Source: Chloracidobacterium sp. (GTDB lineage: Bacteria > Acidobacteriota > Blastocatellia > Pyrinomonadales > Pyrinomonadaceae). From it: a DNA stretch of 38,091 nucleotides. This document shows, piece after piece, positions 1,655 through 16,825 of the stretch. Position numbers and translations under genes: made by a program. The notes under the pieces are model-generated. The model was not told where the DNA came from, searched no databases, and saw only the letters and a program-made list of their open reading frames with translations. The stretch lies in assembly GCA_025362075.1 (NCBI GenBank), contig JANYIL010000195.1, positions 1-38,091 on the forward strand. Direction: 5' to 3'. Position 1 is the stretch's first letter, and each line of letters opens with the position of its first letter.

Positions 1655-3370
1655 TCAACCCGCCAGCGAAACGTGGCGGTTCGGTAAACTGAAGTTTGCA
1701 ATCTGAGCGATATTCCATTTCGGTTGGTCTTTGGCTACGACGATCTTCCCATCCTTGGCGAATTCGACGCGGACGATGCCCGGTTTTTCACGCCAATTGA
1801 CCTGATCGTCGTTGCCAAAAAAGGCACACCACCAATTACCCTGTTTGTCCTTGAAATAATCCGTCCCGCCACCCGATGGAACTGCCTCGTGACGCATCCG
1901 GTAAGGGCCGTAAATGCTTTCGGAGATGGCGACGACGCTCGAATAACGGCCCTCGTACTCGTCGGCTGCGCCGAGATAGTATTTGCCGTTTGCTTTGAAA
2001 AGCGTTGCTCCTTCGTGGCCGATGTCGTTTGCCCCGCGTGTGCTGCATTTGGCCGAATGGTGTTTCGGGTCACGGTCGGGGCTGTCCAGCTTTACCTGAT
2101 GATTCCCCAACGGCTTTACATCAGTGACCGCTGGGCTTGCCGGGACCGGAAATGTCGCGAGCGAATCCGGCTTTTTCGGGTCGAATTTTGGCAGATCTTT
2201 TATCAAATATTTCGCAAGCGGCAGTTTTTGATCGCGGATCGCCTGAACGATACATTTTGCCAGCTCATATGCACCATAATTTGTGTGATGCGTCGCGTCA
2301 CCTGGTTTAAAGAGTGCCCCGGATTTGTCGGGCCCTAGAGCTTCGTATAGGTCTTTGCTCATCGCGGTCAGATCGATCAGCGGGACATTTTCCTCCTTTG
2401 CGGCTTGCCGGACGGCCTCGGGATAATCGCCGTGCGAATTTGTGACCTTACCCGCAGCGTCAAATGTCCTGCGGTGCATAGGCGTGACGAGTATTGGAAT
2501 TCCGCCCTTTTTACGGGCCGCCTCAACGAACTGTTTGAGGCTCGTTTTGAAACTCGTAAATGCTCCGATGCTGTCGCCTTTTTCTTTTTCGTCGTTGTGG
2601 GCGTATTGGATCAAGAGATAGTCGCCCGGTTTCATCTGGCTCAAAACTTTGTCGAGGCGTTTGGCACCAAATGAGCTTTTGAGTGATTCGCCGGATTCGG
2701 CGTTATTGGCTATGGCGATCTTGTTATCAAAAAAACGTGTCAGCATCTGTCCCCAGCTTGCATACGGCTCGGTTGGCTGATCGGTGATGGTCGAATCGCC
2801 GAGCAGGAAGATTGTTGGCACGTTGACTGGCTCGATCTCAATTGCGCTGACCGACGGATGAGCGCCGTTAAATTCGAGCGTCAATTTCTCATCCCACGCC
2901 CATTTTTCAGAAGCCTTTTCGCGATCCTTCAGCTTCACCTCGCCGCCGGTCGAGATCTGCGGCGTGCGGATGTTTACGATAAAGCTTTTGGTCACAAACT
3001 TTCCTTTTTGCGTGTCAACGCTTTCGAGCATCAGACGGCGAAGCTCGGCTTTGACGACGGTCGAGGTTGCTGCCGTTTTATCGCCAAATGTCACCGTCAC
3101 CTTATAATTGCCCTCGGGTACTGCAACGCTGAAATAGAACGGTTTATCATTCGAACAACTGTCTGCCCCCAGCTTGCAGGTGATCTCGATCCCGGTCTCA
3201 AATCCGAAACCCTTCTGCATGCTGTAAGAGCTCTGGGCATCGACCTGGACCGCCTTTGAAGCCACCCTGCCGACGCCGAAGTCGAATTTCCTCGAAACGG
3301 ATTGGCCCGATACAGCCGCCGCGAAAAGTGTTGCCGCCACGGCGATCGATAGCAACGATTTATTTAACAT
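1655..3370 (-). CDS. rhamnogalacturonan acetylesterase-like SGNH enzyme with GH43-like C-terminal fragment
   Basis: Exported 571-residue multidomain enzyme. Residues 1-23 are a signal peptide. Residues 25-180 look like the beta-sandwich module that precedes SGNH domains in RhgT/YesT-type rhamnogalacturonan acetylesterases. Residues 185-385 form the SGNH domain, with Ser193 in LLGDSTITDQP, the YAHND motif (256-260), and the Asp358/His361 pair in GDATHHTNYG. Residues about 449-550 (DIGHEGATLFKANGKYYLGA, SIYGPY, FFGNDDQ) resemble the C-terminal blades of a GH43-type five-bladed propeller, but the N-terminal blades carrying the first catalytic acids are absent. The fragment is therefore probably a non-catalytic remnant or binding module. 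The gene lies 9 bp after the GH29 gene, consistent with co-transcription. The GH43 assignment rests on motif memory and is less certain than the SGNH call. Confidence 0.85.
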   Translation of the reverse strand: MLNKSLLSIAVAATLFAAAVSGQSVSRKFDFGVGRVASKAVQVDAQSSYSMQKGFGFETGIEITCKLGADSCSNDKPFYFSVAVPEGNYKVTVTFGDKTAATSTVVKAELRRLMLESVDTQKGKFVTKSFIVNIRTPQISTGGEVKLKDREKASEKWAWDEKLTLEFNGAHPSVSAIEIEPVNVPTIFLLGDSTITDQPTEPYASWGQMLTRFFDNKIAIANNAESGESLKSSFGAKRLDKVLSQMKPGDYLLIQYAHNDEKEKGDSIGAFTSFKTSLKQFVEAARKKGGIPILVTPMHRRTFDAAGKVTNSHGDYPEAVRQAAKEENVPLIDLTAMSKDLYEALGPDKSGALFKPGDATHHTNYGAYELAKCIVQAIRDQKLPLAKYLIKDLPKFDPKKPDSLATFPVPASPAVTDVKPLGNHQVKLDSPDRDPKHHSAKCSTRGANDIGHEGATLFKANGKYYLGAADEYEGRYSSVVAISESIYGPYRMRHEAVPSGGGTDYFKDKQGNWWCAFFGNDDQVNWREKPGIVRVEFAKDGKIVVAKDQPKWNIAQIANFSLPNRHVSLAG

Positions 3371-7834: not shown

Positions 7835-9496
7835 ATGAGTATTGGGAGACGAGAGTTTTTGGGCCGCACGGCGCTGGCCGGGGCGGCGGCCTTGATCGCT
7901 CCGCGGGCGATGTATTCGCAGGCGGCGGAGTCGCGGGTCGAGATCCTCATCAATGAGCCGATCGGCACCATAAACCGGAATCTCTACAGCCACTTTGTCG
8001 AGCATCTCGGCGGCGTGGTTTACGACGGCATCTGGGTGGGCGAAAAATCGAAGATACCGAACGTGGGCGGCATCCGAAAGGCGCTCATCGACAGCCTGGC
8101 AAAGATCAAGCCGGGCGTGATCCGTTACCCGGGCGGCTGCTTTGCCGACCAATACGACTGGAAAGACGGTATCGGGCCGCGGGATAAACGCCCATCGCGC
8201 GTCAATTTTTGGGCTGATACGAAATATAAGACCTCTAAAGAGTATGAGGCGCTAAATTCCGGCCCTCAGAAATATGAGCCGAACCAGTTCGGAACGGACG
8301 ATTTTATCAACCTGTGCAAACTGACTGGCGCCAGGCCTTATTTAGCGGCCAATCTTCGCAGTCTGCCCGTGCGGTCGTATCTCGAATGGCTCGAATACTG
8401 CAACGCCCCGGTCGGGCTGACAACGCTTTCATCGGCGCGTGCCGTCAACAACAGCAAAGAGCCGTATAACGTCCAGTATTGGGGCATTGGGAACGAATCG
8501 TGGGGCTGCGGCGGTGATTTTCTGCCGGAGGAATATGCAGAGGAGTTTCGTAAATTTACGGCGTGGCTCCCGACCTACGGCGTCAAATTACAGCTCGTCG
8601 GTTCCGGCCCGAATGGTGGCGACCTGAGCTGGACGCGGCGGTTTTTTACAAAATTGACCGAGAAAGGTTCCGGGCAGCTAAACAAACTATACGGCTGGGC
8701 CCTGCACTACTACTGCGGTACAACGGGCAAAGGTATTTCGAACGAATACACCGAAAACGAATGGTACGACCTGCTGATGCGATCCGACCGGATGGAGAAT
8801 TTGATAAAAGATCACTGGACCGTAATGGGCGAGACCGACCGCGACCACCGCATCAAACTAATTGTCGACGAATGGGGAGCCTGGCACAATCAAGACGCAA
8901 ATGTGCCGGCCGCATATCTTTACGATTATGCCGCGACACTGCGTGACGCTCTGATCTCGGGTATTAATCTCGATACATTCCAACGCCACGCCGACAAGGT
9001 CGCGATGGCAAACCCGGCACAGCTTATTAATACTATCCACTCGATATTTCAGGCGCAGGAGGACAAATTTGTCGAGACGGCGAACTATCACGTTTTCGAG
9101 ATGTACATGCCGCACGCCGGTGCGACCGCCGTCAGGACCGAGTTTGTCTCGCCGCAGGTCGGTTTTTCGCGTTTTGATGCACAGAGGAAAGAGATACCGA
9201 CGAATTTCTGGGGCCTAAATGGCTCGGCGTCCATAAATGGAAAAACAGTCACGCTGACCGCCGTAAATCCCGCCGTCAGCGCGGCGCGTGAGACCGAGAT
9301 AAATATCGGCGGAGCAAAGATCGTCTCGGCGACGGCGCGTGTGTTGTCATCGACCGACATCCACGCTCGAAATACATTCGACGCTCCGCACGCTCTTGAA
9401 CCGCGTAACGAGAGTGTCACAGTCAGTGCGGGCGGAAGACTGGTCTATAAATTTGCTCCAGCGTCGGTGACGCGGCTGACACTGACGATCGTCTGA
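7835..9496 (+). CDS. Tat-exported alpha-L-arabinofuranosidase, GH51
   Basis: Retaining alpha-L-arabinofuranosidase, 553 residues. The N-terminus MSIGRREFLGRTALAGAAAL is a twin-arginine signal (R5R6, F8L9), so the enzyme is probably exported folded. The GH51 barrel opens with TINRNLYSHFVEHLGGVVYD and IRYPGGCFADQYDW; Glu221 in GIGNESWGCGG is the acid/base and Glu346 in LIVDEWGAWH the nucleophile. A C-terminal beta-sandwich domain (about 430-553) completes the family layout. AGGAG at 7820-7824 sits 10 nt before the ATG. It is the first gene of the rightward operon with GH105 and RhaM and would release arabinose from RG-I arabinan side chains. Confidence 0.95.
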   Translation: MSIGRREFLGRTALAGAAALIAPRAMYSQAAESRVEILINEPIGTINRNLYSHFVEHLGGVVYDGIWVGEKSKIPNVGGIRKALIDSLAKIKPGVIRYPGGCFADQYDWKDGIGPRDKRPSRVNFWADTKYKTSKEYEALNSGPQKYEPNQFGTDDFINLCKLTGARPYLAANLRSLPVRSYLEWLEYCNAPVGLTTLSSARAVNNSKEPYNVQYWGIGNESWGCGGDFLPEEYAEEFRKFTAWLPTYGVKLQLVGSGPNGGDLSWTRRFFTKLTEKGSGQLNKLYGWALHYYCGTTGKGISNEYTENEWYDLLMRSDRMENLIKDHWTVMGETDRDHRIKLIVDEWGAWHNQDANVPAAYLYDYAATLRDALISGINLDTFQRHADKVAMANPAQLINTIHSIFQAQEDKFVETANYHVFEMYMPHAGATAVRTEFVSPQVGFSRFDAQRKEIPTNFWGLNGSASINGKTVTLTAVNPAVSAARETEINIGGAKIVSATARVLSSTDIHARNTFDAPHALEPRNESVTVSAGGRLVYKFAPASVTRLTLTIV

Positions 9497-9497
9497 G

Positions 9498-9597
9498 TTG
9501 AACCGCGAAAAACGCGAAATAAACTAAAAACTGAAACCCAGCATGAAAAAGCACCTTTTATTATTTTTGGTATGTTTCGCGTGTTTCGCGGTTAACT
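9498..9597. repeat. inverted repeat spanning the GH105 start and signal peptide
   Basis: The left arm AACCGCGAAAAACGCGAAA (9501-9519) and the right arm TTTCGCGTGTTTCGCGGTT (9575-9593) are reverse complements with a single mismatch, spaced by about 55 bp. The right arm is translated as residues 10-18 of the GH105 signal peptide. The unit, AACGCGAAA, is of the same short-period palindromic kind as other repeats in the window. Confidence 0.75.
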
Positions 9598-10901
9598 ACT
9601 CCTCGTTTGCCCAGACCGACGCAACAACGCCGCTGCATCTTCTAAAACCGGATTATCCGATGCCGTATGGCATCCCGAAGCAGGAAGACGTCACCTCCGT
9701 GCTCGACCGCATTCACGGATACCTCAACTTAGTCACGCCGCCCGGATTTATCAACGGAAAAACCGAAGCACCGGTCACGGATCTTACAAAGATCGACGCT
9801 GACACGGTACTTGCACGCGGTGATTTCCGGATCGTTTCTTACGAATGGGGCGTGACCTACGCCGGTATGCTGCTGGCGAGCGAGGCGACTGGCGATCCGC
9901 GTTTTCGCGACTATACTGAAAAGCGATTGTCGTTCATCGCCGACGCTGCGGGCGGATTTAAGAAACCGGTGGCCGGTTATTCGGATTGGGAAGCAAAAAT
10001 GCCGCTTCGAAATCTGCTTTTTCCGCGGGCCCTGGATGACACAGGAGCGATGACAGCCGCGATGATCAAGGCGAAACGGGCGGGCAGCAAGGCCAACATA
10101 CAGCCGATCATCGACAACGGGATCGGCCATATAATGAACAAGCAGTATCGCCTCGCGGACGGAACATTGGCCCGTAACAGGCCGCAGCCGAACACGCTCT
10201 GGCTCGACGACATGTTTATGGGCGTTCCGGCGATCGCCCAGATGGGCAAGATGACGGGCGACACGAAATATTATGACGAGGCCGCCAAACAGGTATTGAG
10301 CTTTGCCAAAAAGATGTTCAACAAGGAAAAGGGCATCTACATGCACGGCTGGGTAGAGGGCATGACCGAGCATCCCGAGTTTCACTGGGCGAGGGCAAAC
10401 GGCTGGGCGTTTATGACGGAGGCCGAAATTCTGGAGGTCCTGCCTGAAAATCACCCTCTCCGCCCGCAGATCCTGGCTTTGTACAGGGCCCATGCAAAGG
10501 GGCTCGCTTCGTACCAATCAGGTTCGGGCTTTTGGCATCAGCTGCTCGACCACGAAGATTCTTATCTCGAAACATCGGCCACGGCGATCTATGCCTTCGC
10601 CTACGCTCGCGGCGTCAATCGCGGCTGGCTCGACGCCAAAGCCTACGCACCGATGACATTGCTCGCATGGAACGCGGTCAGCACCAAGGTCAACGCAAAA
10701 GGCCAGGTCGAAGGCACGTGTGTCGGGACGGGTATGGCCTTTGACCCGGCGTTTTATTACCACCGCCCGACGAGCATGTTTGCGGCCCACGGTTACGGGC
10801 CGACGCTGCTGGCGGGGGCCGAAGTGTTTTCGATGTTGAAAAATTTCAAATTTGAGATCAACGACAGCTCGGTGCAGCTAGTCGAACCCATTAAGAAATG
10901 A
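9543..10901 (+). CDS. exported unsaturated rhamnogalacturonyl hydrolase, GH105 (GH88/105 clan)
   Basis: Removes the unsaturated galacturonic acid left at the non-reducing end by rhamnogalacturonan lyases, as YteR/YesR do. The 452-residue protein has a signal peptide ([19 protein letters not shown], cut near SFAQ) and an (alpha/alpha)6 barrel. Family motifs are LDDTGAM (164-170), [18 protein letters not shown] (218-235), [19 protein letters not shown] (280-291) and [18 protein letters not shown]. Its signal peptide overlaps one arm of an inverted repeat. It starts 46 bp after the GH51 stop and overlaps rhaM by 4 bp (ATGA), so translation with RhaM is coupled. No RG lyase is visible in the window, though its action is implied. 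Confidence 0.93.
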
Positions 10902-11212
10902 TCCGGAAAGCATTTTTAATGAGCGTTAACCCTGACGCGCATGAGGAATACGAGCGTCGGCATCGGCCGATATGGGGAGATTTGGAAGCGGTATTGAGAG
11001 AGCACGGCGTTTCAAATTATTCGATCTTTCTCGACGCGGAAACAAGTCAGCTTTTCGGTTATGCCGAGATCAAATCCGAGGAACGTTGGGCAGCGATCGC
11101 CGAGACAGATGAATGCCGGCGTTGGTGGGCGTTTATGAAAGACATCATGCAGTCGAATGCCGACAACATCCCGGTTTCAATAGATCTTCGCCAAGTTTTT
11201 CATCTTGACTAG
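10898..11212 (+). CDS. rhaM: L-rhamnose mutarotase
   Basis: Interconverts alpha- and beta-L-rhamnopyranose so that released rhamnose can enter catabolism. At 104 residues it is full length for the RhaM family. Hallmarks are a dimeric alpha/beta barrel pattern with YERRHRPIW near residue 18, [17 protein letters not shown] and [12 protein letters not shown], including the conserved Trp-Trp pair. It has no signal peptide, so it acts in the cytoplasm. Its start codon overlaps the GH105 stop (ATGA). Its presence ties the locus to rhamnose-containing pectin (RG-I). Confidence 0.93.
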
Positions 11213-11368: not shown

Positions 11369-12559
11369 ATGGCCGCCGGTATCTATCTCCACATCCCGTT
11401 TTGCAAATCGCGTTGCTCATACTGCGATTTTGCGACCGACGTTTATCGCGATTCGGGTGCGGTCGAGCGCTACGTTGATGCATTGTGCAAAGAGATCACG
11501 GAGTTTTCGCCGCAGATGAGCGCAGATGACGCAGATAGAGTTATTCATTCCGATCCGCATCATCTGCGTTCATCTGCGGCCTTGTCATCGTTTAGTCCTG
11601 ATACCGTTTATTTCGGCGGCGGCACGCCATCGCTGTTGTCACCCGGTCAGATCGAGCGCATTTTGAAAGTCGTGCATGATAAATTCGTTGTAATCGCCGA
11701 CGTCGAGATCACGATGGAGATGAACCCGGCGACCGTCACGCCGGAAACGCTGCAAAGCTATCGATTGCTCGGCGTCAACCGGGCAAGCTTTGGCGTTCAG
11801 ACCTTCGACGACCGGGCTCTCAAGCTCCTTGCTCGCGGACACGACGCAAATGATGCTCGTACGACATTTGCGCTGCTGCGCGCTGCCGGTTTCGATAATG
11901 TCAGCTTTGACCTGATCGCGGGCTTGCCGGGGCAGACGCTCTCGGATTGGGAAAAGAATCTTGATGAGGCTGTCGCTCTCTCACCTGAGCACCTTTCACT
12001 CTATTTGCTTGAAATCCACAGCGGTACACCGCTTGCGGAACAACTCCGCAGCAAACGTCAGCCGACGCCCGACCCTGAACTCGCCGCCGAAATGTACGAG
12101 ATGATGCTCGACCGTCTCGCCGCCGCCGGTTATGACCAATACGAGATCTCAAATTTCTCGAGGCGAGGCTTCGAATCACGTCATAATTCGAAATACTGGA
12201 AGCTCGACCCCGTTTTCGCGTTCGGCGTCTCGGCCCATTCGTTCGACGGTAGACAGCGCTACGCGAACGAGCGCGATACGGCAAAATATGTCGACCTTAT
12301 CGAAAGCGCAGATTCGGCCGAGGTCATGCGAGAAGATATTGATATTGCGTCGGAGTTTGTATTTCTCGGCCTCAGACTGGAAAAGGGCGTCGATCTTGGC
12401 GAATACGCTCGTCGTTTTGGCATTGATCTGATGAAAAAATACGAAGCCGAACTGAGCGAAATGCGTAACGGCGGTTTGGTCGAGACAGTCTGTGGTCACC
12501 TGCGTCTAACGCGGAAGGGCAAGCTTTTCTCGAACGAGGTTTTCGCGATATTTGTTTAA
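11369..12559 (+). CDS. hemW: radical SAM heme chaperone HemW
   Basis: HemW-type radical SAM protein (formerly annotated as oxygen-independent coproporphyrinogen III oxidase), thought to deliver heme to target proteins. The 396 residues begin IYLHIPFCKSRCSYCDF with the cluster cysteines Cys12, Cys16 and Cys19. The single Tyr-Cys and the absence of the HemN-specific N-terminal extension favour HemW over HemN. Further motifs are YFGGGTPSLL (81-90), EITMEMNPATVTPE, FGVQTFDD, FDLIAGLPGQT and YEISNFSR. Residues about 47-75 are an extra segment encoded by a palindromic repeat (11509-11581), making the protein longer than usual. TAGAAT at 11356-11361 ends 7 nt before the ATG and there is no Shine-Dalgarno, so the mRNA may be leaderless. 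The stop is 1 bp from the convergent tryptophan dioxygenase stop. Confidence 0.93.
   Translation: MAAGIYLHIPFCKSRCSYCDFATDVYRDSGAVERYVDALCKEITEFSPQMSADDADRVIHSDPHHLRSSAALSSFSPDTVYFGGGTPSLLSPGQIERILKVVHDKFVVIADVEITMEMNPATVTPETLQSYRLLGVNRASFGVQTFDDRALKLLARGHDANDARTTFALLRAAGFDNVSFDLIAGLPGQTLSDWEKNLDEAVALSPEHLSLYLLEIHSGTPLAEQLRSKRQPTPDPELAAEMYEMMLDRLAAAGYDQYEISNFSRRGFESRHNSKYWKLDPVFAFGVSAHSFDGRQRYANERDTAKYVDLIESADSAEVMREDIDIASEFVFLGLRLEKGVDLGEYARRFGIDLMKKYEAELSEMRNGGLVETVCGHLRLTRKGKLFSNEVFAIFV
11509..11581. repeat. palindromic repeat inserted in frame in hemW
   Basis: The left arm (11509-11536) starts GCCGCAGATGAGCGCAGATG and the right arm (11559-11581) reads ATCATCTGCGTTCATCTGCG and continues GCC. 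CCGCAGATGARCGCAGATGA is shared by both arms in opposite orientation with one mismatch, around a loop of about 22 bp. The element stays in frame and encodes about 25 residues lying between the N-terminal helices and the GGGTPS motif of HemW. Confidence 0.8.
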
Positions 12560-16126: not shown

Positions 16127-16825
16127 ATGAAAATCCTTATTGTCGAAGACGAACAGCACTTGGCAGACGGTCTGCGATTTAATCTCGAGGCCGAGGGGTA
16201 CGAGGCGGTGATCGCGGGCGACGGGCTCGTCGCGCTCGAAACGCTCGAATCGAAAAAATTCGACGCGGTTGTTCTCGACGTGATGCTGCCTGGTGCGGAT
16301 GGTTTTGAGGTTGCCCGGACGATGCGTGAGCGGGCGGATTACACTCCGATATTGATGCTTACGGCCAGGGGCCACGCTGAGGATGTATTGAATGGTTTTG
16401 CCGCCGGAGCGGACGATTACCTGCCAAAGCCGTTCGAGCTTGAGATATTTCTTGCCCGCCTCAACGGCCTCCTGCGCCGCCGCCAATGGCTCGAAACCGA
16501 GAGCAAAACGCCAAGCGTGGTCATGGTCAATGGCCGTGAGATCGATCTCGAAAACCTCGAGATGCGAAACGGCGACGAACACGTTCGCCTGACCCTGATG
16601 GAGGCAAAGCTGCTCGGATATCTGATCGAGAACGAAGGCCGGGCCGTCTCAAGAAAAGTGATCCTCGAAGAGGTCTGGCACCTTCAGGAAGACACCGATA
16701 CGCGGGCGATCGACAATTTTATTGTCCGTCTGCGCCGGATGCTCGAGGACGAGCCGGACAACCCGAAGATCGTCCAGACCGTTCGGGGTGTCGGTTACCG
16801 ATACATAAATCAGGCGGTGGAATGA
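16127..16825 (+). CDS. OmpR/PhoB-family response regulator
   Basis: DNA-binding two-component response regulator, 232 residues. The receiver domain (1-115) has MKILIVEDE (acidic pocket around residues 7-9), phospho-acceptor Asp51 in VVLDVMLPG, Thr79 in MLTARG and Lys101 in LPKPFE. The C-terminal winged helix (about 135-230) has LTLMEAKLLGYLIENEGRAV and RRMLEDEPDNPKIVQTVRGV. The start at 16127 gives the canonical N-terminus. It lies close after selA but has no adjacent histidine kinase: the ATGA at its stop opens only a 41-codon reading frame that runs into the convergent beta-helix gene. Its partner kinase must be elsewhere or was lost. Confidence 0.94.
   Translation: MKILIVEDEQHLADGLRFNLEAEGYEAVIAGDGLVALETLESKKFDAVVLDVMLPGADGFEVARTMRERADYTPILMLTARGHAEDVLNGFAAGADDYLPKPFELEIFLARLNGLLRRRQWLETESKTPSVVMVNGREIDLENLEMRNGDEHVRLTLMEAKLLGYLIENEGRAVSRKVILEEVWHLQEDTDTRAIDNFIVRLRRMLEDEPDNPKIVQTVRGVGYRYINQAVE

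Follow-up and report, generated by a model that had tools for sequence, protein, structure and literature searches.

Repeat-derived signal peptides have already been proposed: in Yersinia, the RU-2/YPAL repeat supplies a portion of the YPO1552 signal peptide, and the signal peptides of the YPO1552 homologues are unrelated to the repeat (Delihas 2007, PMC2759123; review PMC2229807). Rickettsia palindromic elements (RPEs) are palindromic repeats that lie in frame within conserved protein genes, in many open reading frames (ORFs) (PMC2229807). Dispersed palindromes are also represented by REPINs (PMC3116915), and REPs of the GTAG and CGTC superfamilies usually follow coding regions, with some reaching the stop codon or falling within genes (Di Nocera 2013, PMC3733652). 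The locus described here is a variation on the Yersinia kind. Our analysis of a 38,091-nt stretch of Chloracidobacterium sp. (the window) and of related genomes suggests, with a probability of about 0.8, that a REP/MITE-like hairpin of a soil Acidobacterium was exapted as the signal peptide, a putative export signal, of a GH105-like enzyme.

The features of the locus, together with those of a second case discussed below, are collected in Table 1. The assignment of the enzyme to GH105 in the original prediction was borne out by its Pfam domain and by solved structures, with a close match to PDB 3k11 (E=1e-150) and further matches to GH105 3qwt and YteR 1nc5. Its gene lies in an operon context, overlapping rhaM on the same strand by 4 nt, and the stop codon of the upstream araF-like gene (TGA, 9494-9496) is the landmark that precedes the element. 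The near-perfect 19-bp inverted repeat reported earlier was recovered, with arms AACCGCGAAAAACGCGAAA (9501-9519) and TTTCGCGTGTTTCGCGGTT (9575-9593) complementary at 18/19 positions, and proved to be larger, extending to 30-nt arms with 26/30 complementary positions (87%). At up to 3 mismatches, the 19-mer matched only these two arms in the window, against a chance expectation of 0.07. As originally described, the left arm lies in the untranslated gap and the right arm is coding; its extent had been misjudged as residues 10-18, since the 19-nt arm runs from the last base of codon 11 to codon 17, the 30-nt arm begins at residue 8, and Asn18 is outside both.

Table 1. Coordinates of the hairpin elements and neighboring genes; positions refer to the window except in the last line.
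Feature	Position	Strand	Remark
alpha-L-arabinofuranosidase-like (araF-like) gene, upstream	7835..9496	+	Pfam PF06964
Palindromic hairpin element, CGCGAAA-unit family	9501..9593	+	apical loop about 9538-9555
Left arm, A-rich, non-coding	9501..9530	+	starts 4 nt past araF-like stop codon
Right arm, T-rich	9564..9593	+	translated in frame as residues 8-17 of GH105 precursor
Putative signal peptide	9543..9614	+	start codon in hairpin loop; peak 9-residue hydropathy 3.26
GH105-like unsaturated rhamnogalacturonyl hydrolase precursor, 452 aa	9543..10901	+	Pfam PF07470, E=1e-84
L-rhamnose mutarotase gene (rhaM), downstream	10898..11212	+	Pfam PF05336
rnhA-YCF48 element	L344 (G000:C18:700-4500), locus positions 1876-1984		hairpin encodes putative signal peptide MQFDIRKIPILIFVLFALFCGNSVFAQ

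The RNA hairpin predicted for these arms had a folding energy of -41.6 kcal/mol, compared with -21.4 +/- 3.2 kcal/mol in shuffled sequences (z -6.4), and matched no Rfam family. The ATG of the GH105 gene at 9543 was located inside its apical loop, in agreement with the earlier view that the stem encloses the start codon. Among 444 sampled genes of the source genome, no inverted repeat across a start codon scored as high as that of the GH105 gene (40, against 26 for the runner-up and 26 for the best permutation); the YCF48 gene described below was left out of this count, as its sequence stretch ends before the stop codon. The GH105 gene was the sole case above the permutation maximum, and start-codon hairpins are therefore an occasional capture rather than a general habit.

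The arm sequence recurs throughout the source genome, where CGCGAAANNCGCGAAA has 11 exact sites, mostly in inverted pairs. A covariance model (R1) built from 41 copies, with the GH105 site left out, matched this held-out site at 9492-9602 with 56.9 bits (window E=5e-14; genome E=5e-12). R1 identified about 60 copies in the source genome, at least 50 of them besides GH105; the underlying figure of about 63 places at E<=0.1 is a lower bound, as part of the candidates were scored. Genome-wide statements of this kind draw on pattern searches, model searches and sampled stretches. The genomes are mostly metagenome assemblies, and that of the source is fragmented into 299 contigs. Inverted pairs with 20-50-nt loops were present in 13/41 genomes of the genus (34 in G012), and exact pairs of the CGCGAAA unit numbered 52+52 in one congeneric genome; a reversed control pattern gave almost none.

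Each arm of the family comprises two or three 9-10-nt CGCGAAA-type units around an AT-rich loop, with the rough consensus TTGCCCGCGAAAyACGCGAAArGACGCGAAA-AAGAA/TTCTT-TTTCGCGTCCTTTCGCGTrTTTCGCGGGCAA. The GH105 copy belongs to a subtype with AACCGCG...CGCGGTT ends, of which a species outside the genus had 13 copies, a third genus two and G061, a congeneric species, one; exact pairs of this subtype turned up in just three further Pyrinomonadaceae genomes, a scarcity that counts against the exaptation proposed here. Many near-identical palindromic copies in one genome, located mostly outside genes and downstream of coding regions, mark the elements as MITE/REP-like.

The placement of the copies was examined for 52 elements of the source genome, with surrounding genes called by a hexamer model and gene starts by a simple codon-usage caller. 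The 3′ end of the nearest gene was a median of 8 nt from the copy (within 17 nt in 39 of the 49 scoreable cases) and the 5′ end of the nearest gene a median of 49 nt; 48/52 copies overlapped no predicted gene by more than 12 nt, and a single copy lay between divergent genes. Likewise, 56/61 clusters in G012 were intergenic. The GH105 copy follows this stop-codon rule relative to the araF-like gene, and its oddity is that the start codon of the next gene is inside the element. Most other ORFs starting in elements were set aside, being short or having a likelier start further downstream.

Further observations were made at gene borders. Two of the source-genome copies (L324, 1817-1885; L339, 1904-1969) appear to provide their neighbors with C-terminal tails and stop codons, the tails ending in ...KSTKNAK and ...SRKKAQKTQK, respectively. 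An intergenic hairpin of CAGATGAACACAGATAAA units at 720-785 of the window obeys the stop-codon rule with another unit family, lying about 12 nt past the stop codon of the minus-strand gene 797-1627. Near position 16134 (minus strand) of locus L376 in G012:C6, a 17-bp perfect inverted repeat from outside the CGCGAAA-unit family links an upstream region with the start of the lipoprotein-like signal peptide MQAGMPAVQSAPACLLLLMFLLSGCSS.

Comparison with other copies indicated that the coding arm is itself element sequence. Codons 2-17 of the GH105 gene aligned without gaps to the G061 copy at 39/48 positions (score 56), compared with 27 for the best of 200 shuffles and 14-22 for the signal peptide sequences of seven orthologues. 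A copy from another genus (G093:C247), TATTTTTAGTATGTTTCGCGTGTTTCGCGGTT, agreed with the GH105 sequence TATTTTTGGTATGTTTCGCGTGTTTCGCGGTT at 31/32 positions, and the right arm agreed with the source-genome copy C273 at 27/30. These ungapped matches to the G061 and G093:C247 copies imply that the degenerate third unit, beyond the 19-nt arm, is also family-derived, and on the strength of the same two alignments the proposal that a repeat was used as an export signal holds at the sequence level.

The right arm specifies the greater part of the putative signal peptide's hydrophobic core, in whose frame the repeat unit reads Cys-Phe-Ala, and the element leaves out only the final 6 or so codons (YSSFAQ) of that peptide. 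Such coding capacity was a property of the family: across 55 copies, hydrophobic 9-residue windows free of stop codons and with a mean Kyte-Doolittle value of at least 1.8 occurred in 0.65 frames per strand in right halves versus 0.06 in dinucleotide-shuffled sequences, and left halves had 0. ORFs resembling signal peptides and starting within the element were found on 5.5% of strands versus 0.6% in shuffles, and the A-rich loop readily yields Met-Lys-Lys. All signal-peptide calls were based on composition and hydropathy.

Twelve GH105 orthologues from Pyrinomonadaceae (73-80% identical) kept the start of the mature enzyme, mostly TDATTPLH.L, and had different signal peptides (e.g., MKISALFLIVACLAQSIVAQ, MKIVSAILLMAVLFSTVLSQ and MTKFITFCLISILFCQTLLAQ); the paired repeat was found in none of the 12. 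The repeat is thus in frame in the N-terminal h-region of a protein whose orthologues have unrelated signal peptides, as in a repeat-derived signal peptide. Neither outcome named beforehand as speaking against the original prediction, namely, arms unique in the genome or repeat-free orthologues with the same signal peptide, was observed.

The orthologues, most of which had no hairpin, also bear on how the element arrived. G092 and G097 carried hairpins of other units after the araF stop codon and ahead of the start codon. G006 carried a left-arm-like array, AACCGCTAAAAACGCTAAAAACGCGAAG, ahead of its start codon, with no clear right arm and with a weak partner to the array inside its signal peptide (inverted-repeat score 16). 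The distance from the araF stop codon to the mature enzyme was 118 nt in the source genome, 119 nt in G006 and 122 nt in G016, and 67-72 nt in G095 and G094. As this distance is unchanged relative to G006 and G016, there was no clean 93-nt insertion, and the arrival of an entire element by insertion was rejected as a full explanation. The element probably arrived by insertion or replacement; judging from these distances, an insertion account also needs either replacement or loss of the old N-terminus. The branch order of the GH105 tree favored neither replacement nor an insertion accompanied by such a loss. Sites lacking the element occur at the orthologous position in relatives that are about 75% identical, a divergence at which a target site duplication is not readable.

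A second case was found in the source genome, where the gene behind a presumed rnhA (so named from the sequence of the upstream reading frame) encodes a YCF48/BNR protein that begins with MQFDIRKIPILIFVLFALFCGNSVFAQ (inverted-repeat score 36). Here, the left arm runs from the rnhA stop codon, the start codon is in the loop, and the right arm encodes FVLFALFCG. In 9/20 relatives, inverted repeats at this position were beyond all 60 shuffles, with left arms at -2 to +16 nt relative to the stop codon and at least five unit types (GCCGCAAAAA; GCCCACGAAA; CCACAGATGAAC; CAGAGACG/CGGAGACG; ATAATGGATA). The right arm lay within the signal peptide in several genomes (G000, G024 and G105), and at its beginning or just ahead of the hydrophobic core in others. 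Among six species with the GCCGCAAAAA type, the coding (right) arms were on average 85% alike and the non-coding (left) arms 72%, with the right arm at least as similar as the left in 15/15 pairs, and pairing had decayed in several species. Selection acting on the peptide rather than on pairing would leave such an asymmetry. The stem may affect translation, as suggested earlier, and the lower similarity of the non-coding arms gives no support for selection on it.

We propose that one copy of a dispersed REP/MITE-like hairpin, whose family settles right behind stop codons, came to lie behind the araF-like gene and took over the start of the GH105 gene. The gap between the two genes is only about 50 nt, so the copy would have overrun the GH105 start. 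The A-rich loop gives ATG-AAA-AAG, and the T-rich right arm, in its one strongly hydrophobic frame, gives the hydrophobic core; with about the last 6 codons ahead of the mature enzyme retained, the arm could work as a signal peptide and direct export. A signal peptide of this origin may be tolerated because selection sees hydrophobicity only. Whether the process is general in Pyrinomonadaceae is, in our estimation, evenly poised: hairpins trailing stop codons may recurrently yield signal peptides, as an A-rich loop and a T-rich arm supply Met-Lys-Lys and a hydrophobic core when the start codon falls in the loop, with repeated capture at rnhA-YCF48 and araF-GH105 by different families, after which selection would keep the coding arm and the other would decay.

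A very stable hairpin with a start codon in its apical loop could also be a regulatory structure, its stem kept to control GH105 translation or transcript processing and its coding of a signal peptide incidental, and the recurrence of hairpins with different sequences at one position behind rnhA would suit this explanation. We consider it unlikely, because most GH105 orthologues have no hairpin, Rfam offered no matching family, and at rnhA-YCF48 it is the coding arm that is better conserved, pairing having decayed in several species. Rather improbable, too, is quasi-palindrome correction, in which a replication template switch would have copied the complement of a pre-existing left arm over part of the signal peptide. 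The array of G006 with its weak signal-peptide partner, the unchanged overall stop-to-mature distance and a signal peptide of 24 codons compared with 20-22 are consistent with such an event, but the right arm, degenerate third unit included, agrees with G093:C247 (31/32) and C273 (27/30) no less closely than with the left arm of its own hairpin (26/30), and a family copy can be aligned to the loop codons too.

Chance complementarity between a signal peptide rich in Phe and Ala codons and an unrelated upstream repeat might be suspected from single arm-like stretches in the signal peptides of a beta-lactamase-family protein (G071, L251) and a VWA protein (G025, L258). Both lack a left arm and were left uncounted because coincidence is possible there. 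At GH105, where the inverted repeat was the best of 444 genes and above all permutations, and where the loop and third unit match other copies without gaps, the held-out model match (E=5e-14) and the permutations refute chance at the level of sequence, and we give it almost no weight. It is hardly credible that an assembly or amplification chimera created the inverted duplication in a metagenome bin: the source genome is fragmented into 299 contigs, but the arms are imperfect, the family is present in many independent genomes, and the same position rule is obeyed. Exaptation of a dispersed hairpin thus remains our preferred reading.

Signal peptides are barely conserved in sequence, and the birth of new ones is seldom directly seen. 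In the present case, we know the sequence of origin, the base composition of the arm accounts for the frame, and element-free orthologues are at hand, which makes it testable how repeat DNA gave rise to an export signal. Our findings also mean that short repeats at gene borders in these genomes cannot be treated as purely non-coding.

Like REPs and REPINs, the CGCGAAA-unit family consists of dispersed palindromes downstream of coding regions. Unlike REPs, its arms are tandem 9-10-nt units with no obvious GTAG or CGTC tag, such a terminal tag being absent from the family consensus (TTGCCCGCGAA... or AACCGCGAA...). The source genome has 12 genes with a Y1 transposase domain (Y1_Tnp, RAYT-type), and R1 gave no match at E<=1 at the 8 of these loci that were examined. 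Because the tag was absent and no copy was found at these 8 loci, we did not assign the family to the RAYT-associated REPs. Other palindromic families, e.g., GTGGACAAACGTCCAC and CCACTAGCTAAAGCTAGTGG, surround Y1_Tnp loci (L031, L032 and L033); several RAYT-like genes, each type accompanied by repeats of its own, are present in the source genome.

The presence of in-frame palindromes in genes is reminiscent of RPEs, although RPEs occur inside many ORFs and the CGCGAAA-unit family is almost always between genes. The same likeness of arrangement applies to HemW in this window, where a second strong hairpin with 28-nt arms (GCCGCAGATGAGCGCAGATGACGCAGAT, score 41) lies at 11509-11580, in frame inside the HemW-like ORF 11369-12559. 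The HemW linker from YVDALCxEI to DTIYFGGGTPS varied from 34 to 70 residues across the genus, and many longer linkers carried in-frame inverted repeats of different families, as in RPEs. A literature search for the other unit sequences returned nothing relevant. The nearest precedent is the Yersinia RU-2 case, which the GH105 signal peptide varies in several respects. In Yersinia, a 168-bp repeat resides in a 144-amino-acid putative exported protein; here, in Acidobacteriota, a hairpin of 9-10-nt units is hosted by the gene of a conserved enzyme and has the start codon in its loop, and a second locus shows the arrangement again, with other repeat families.
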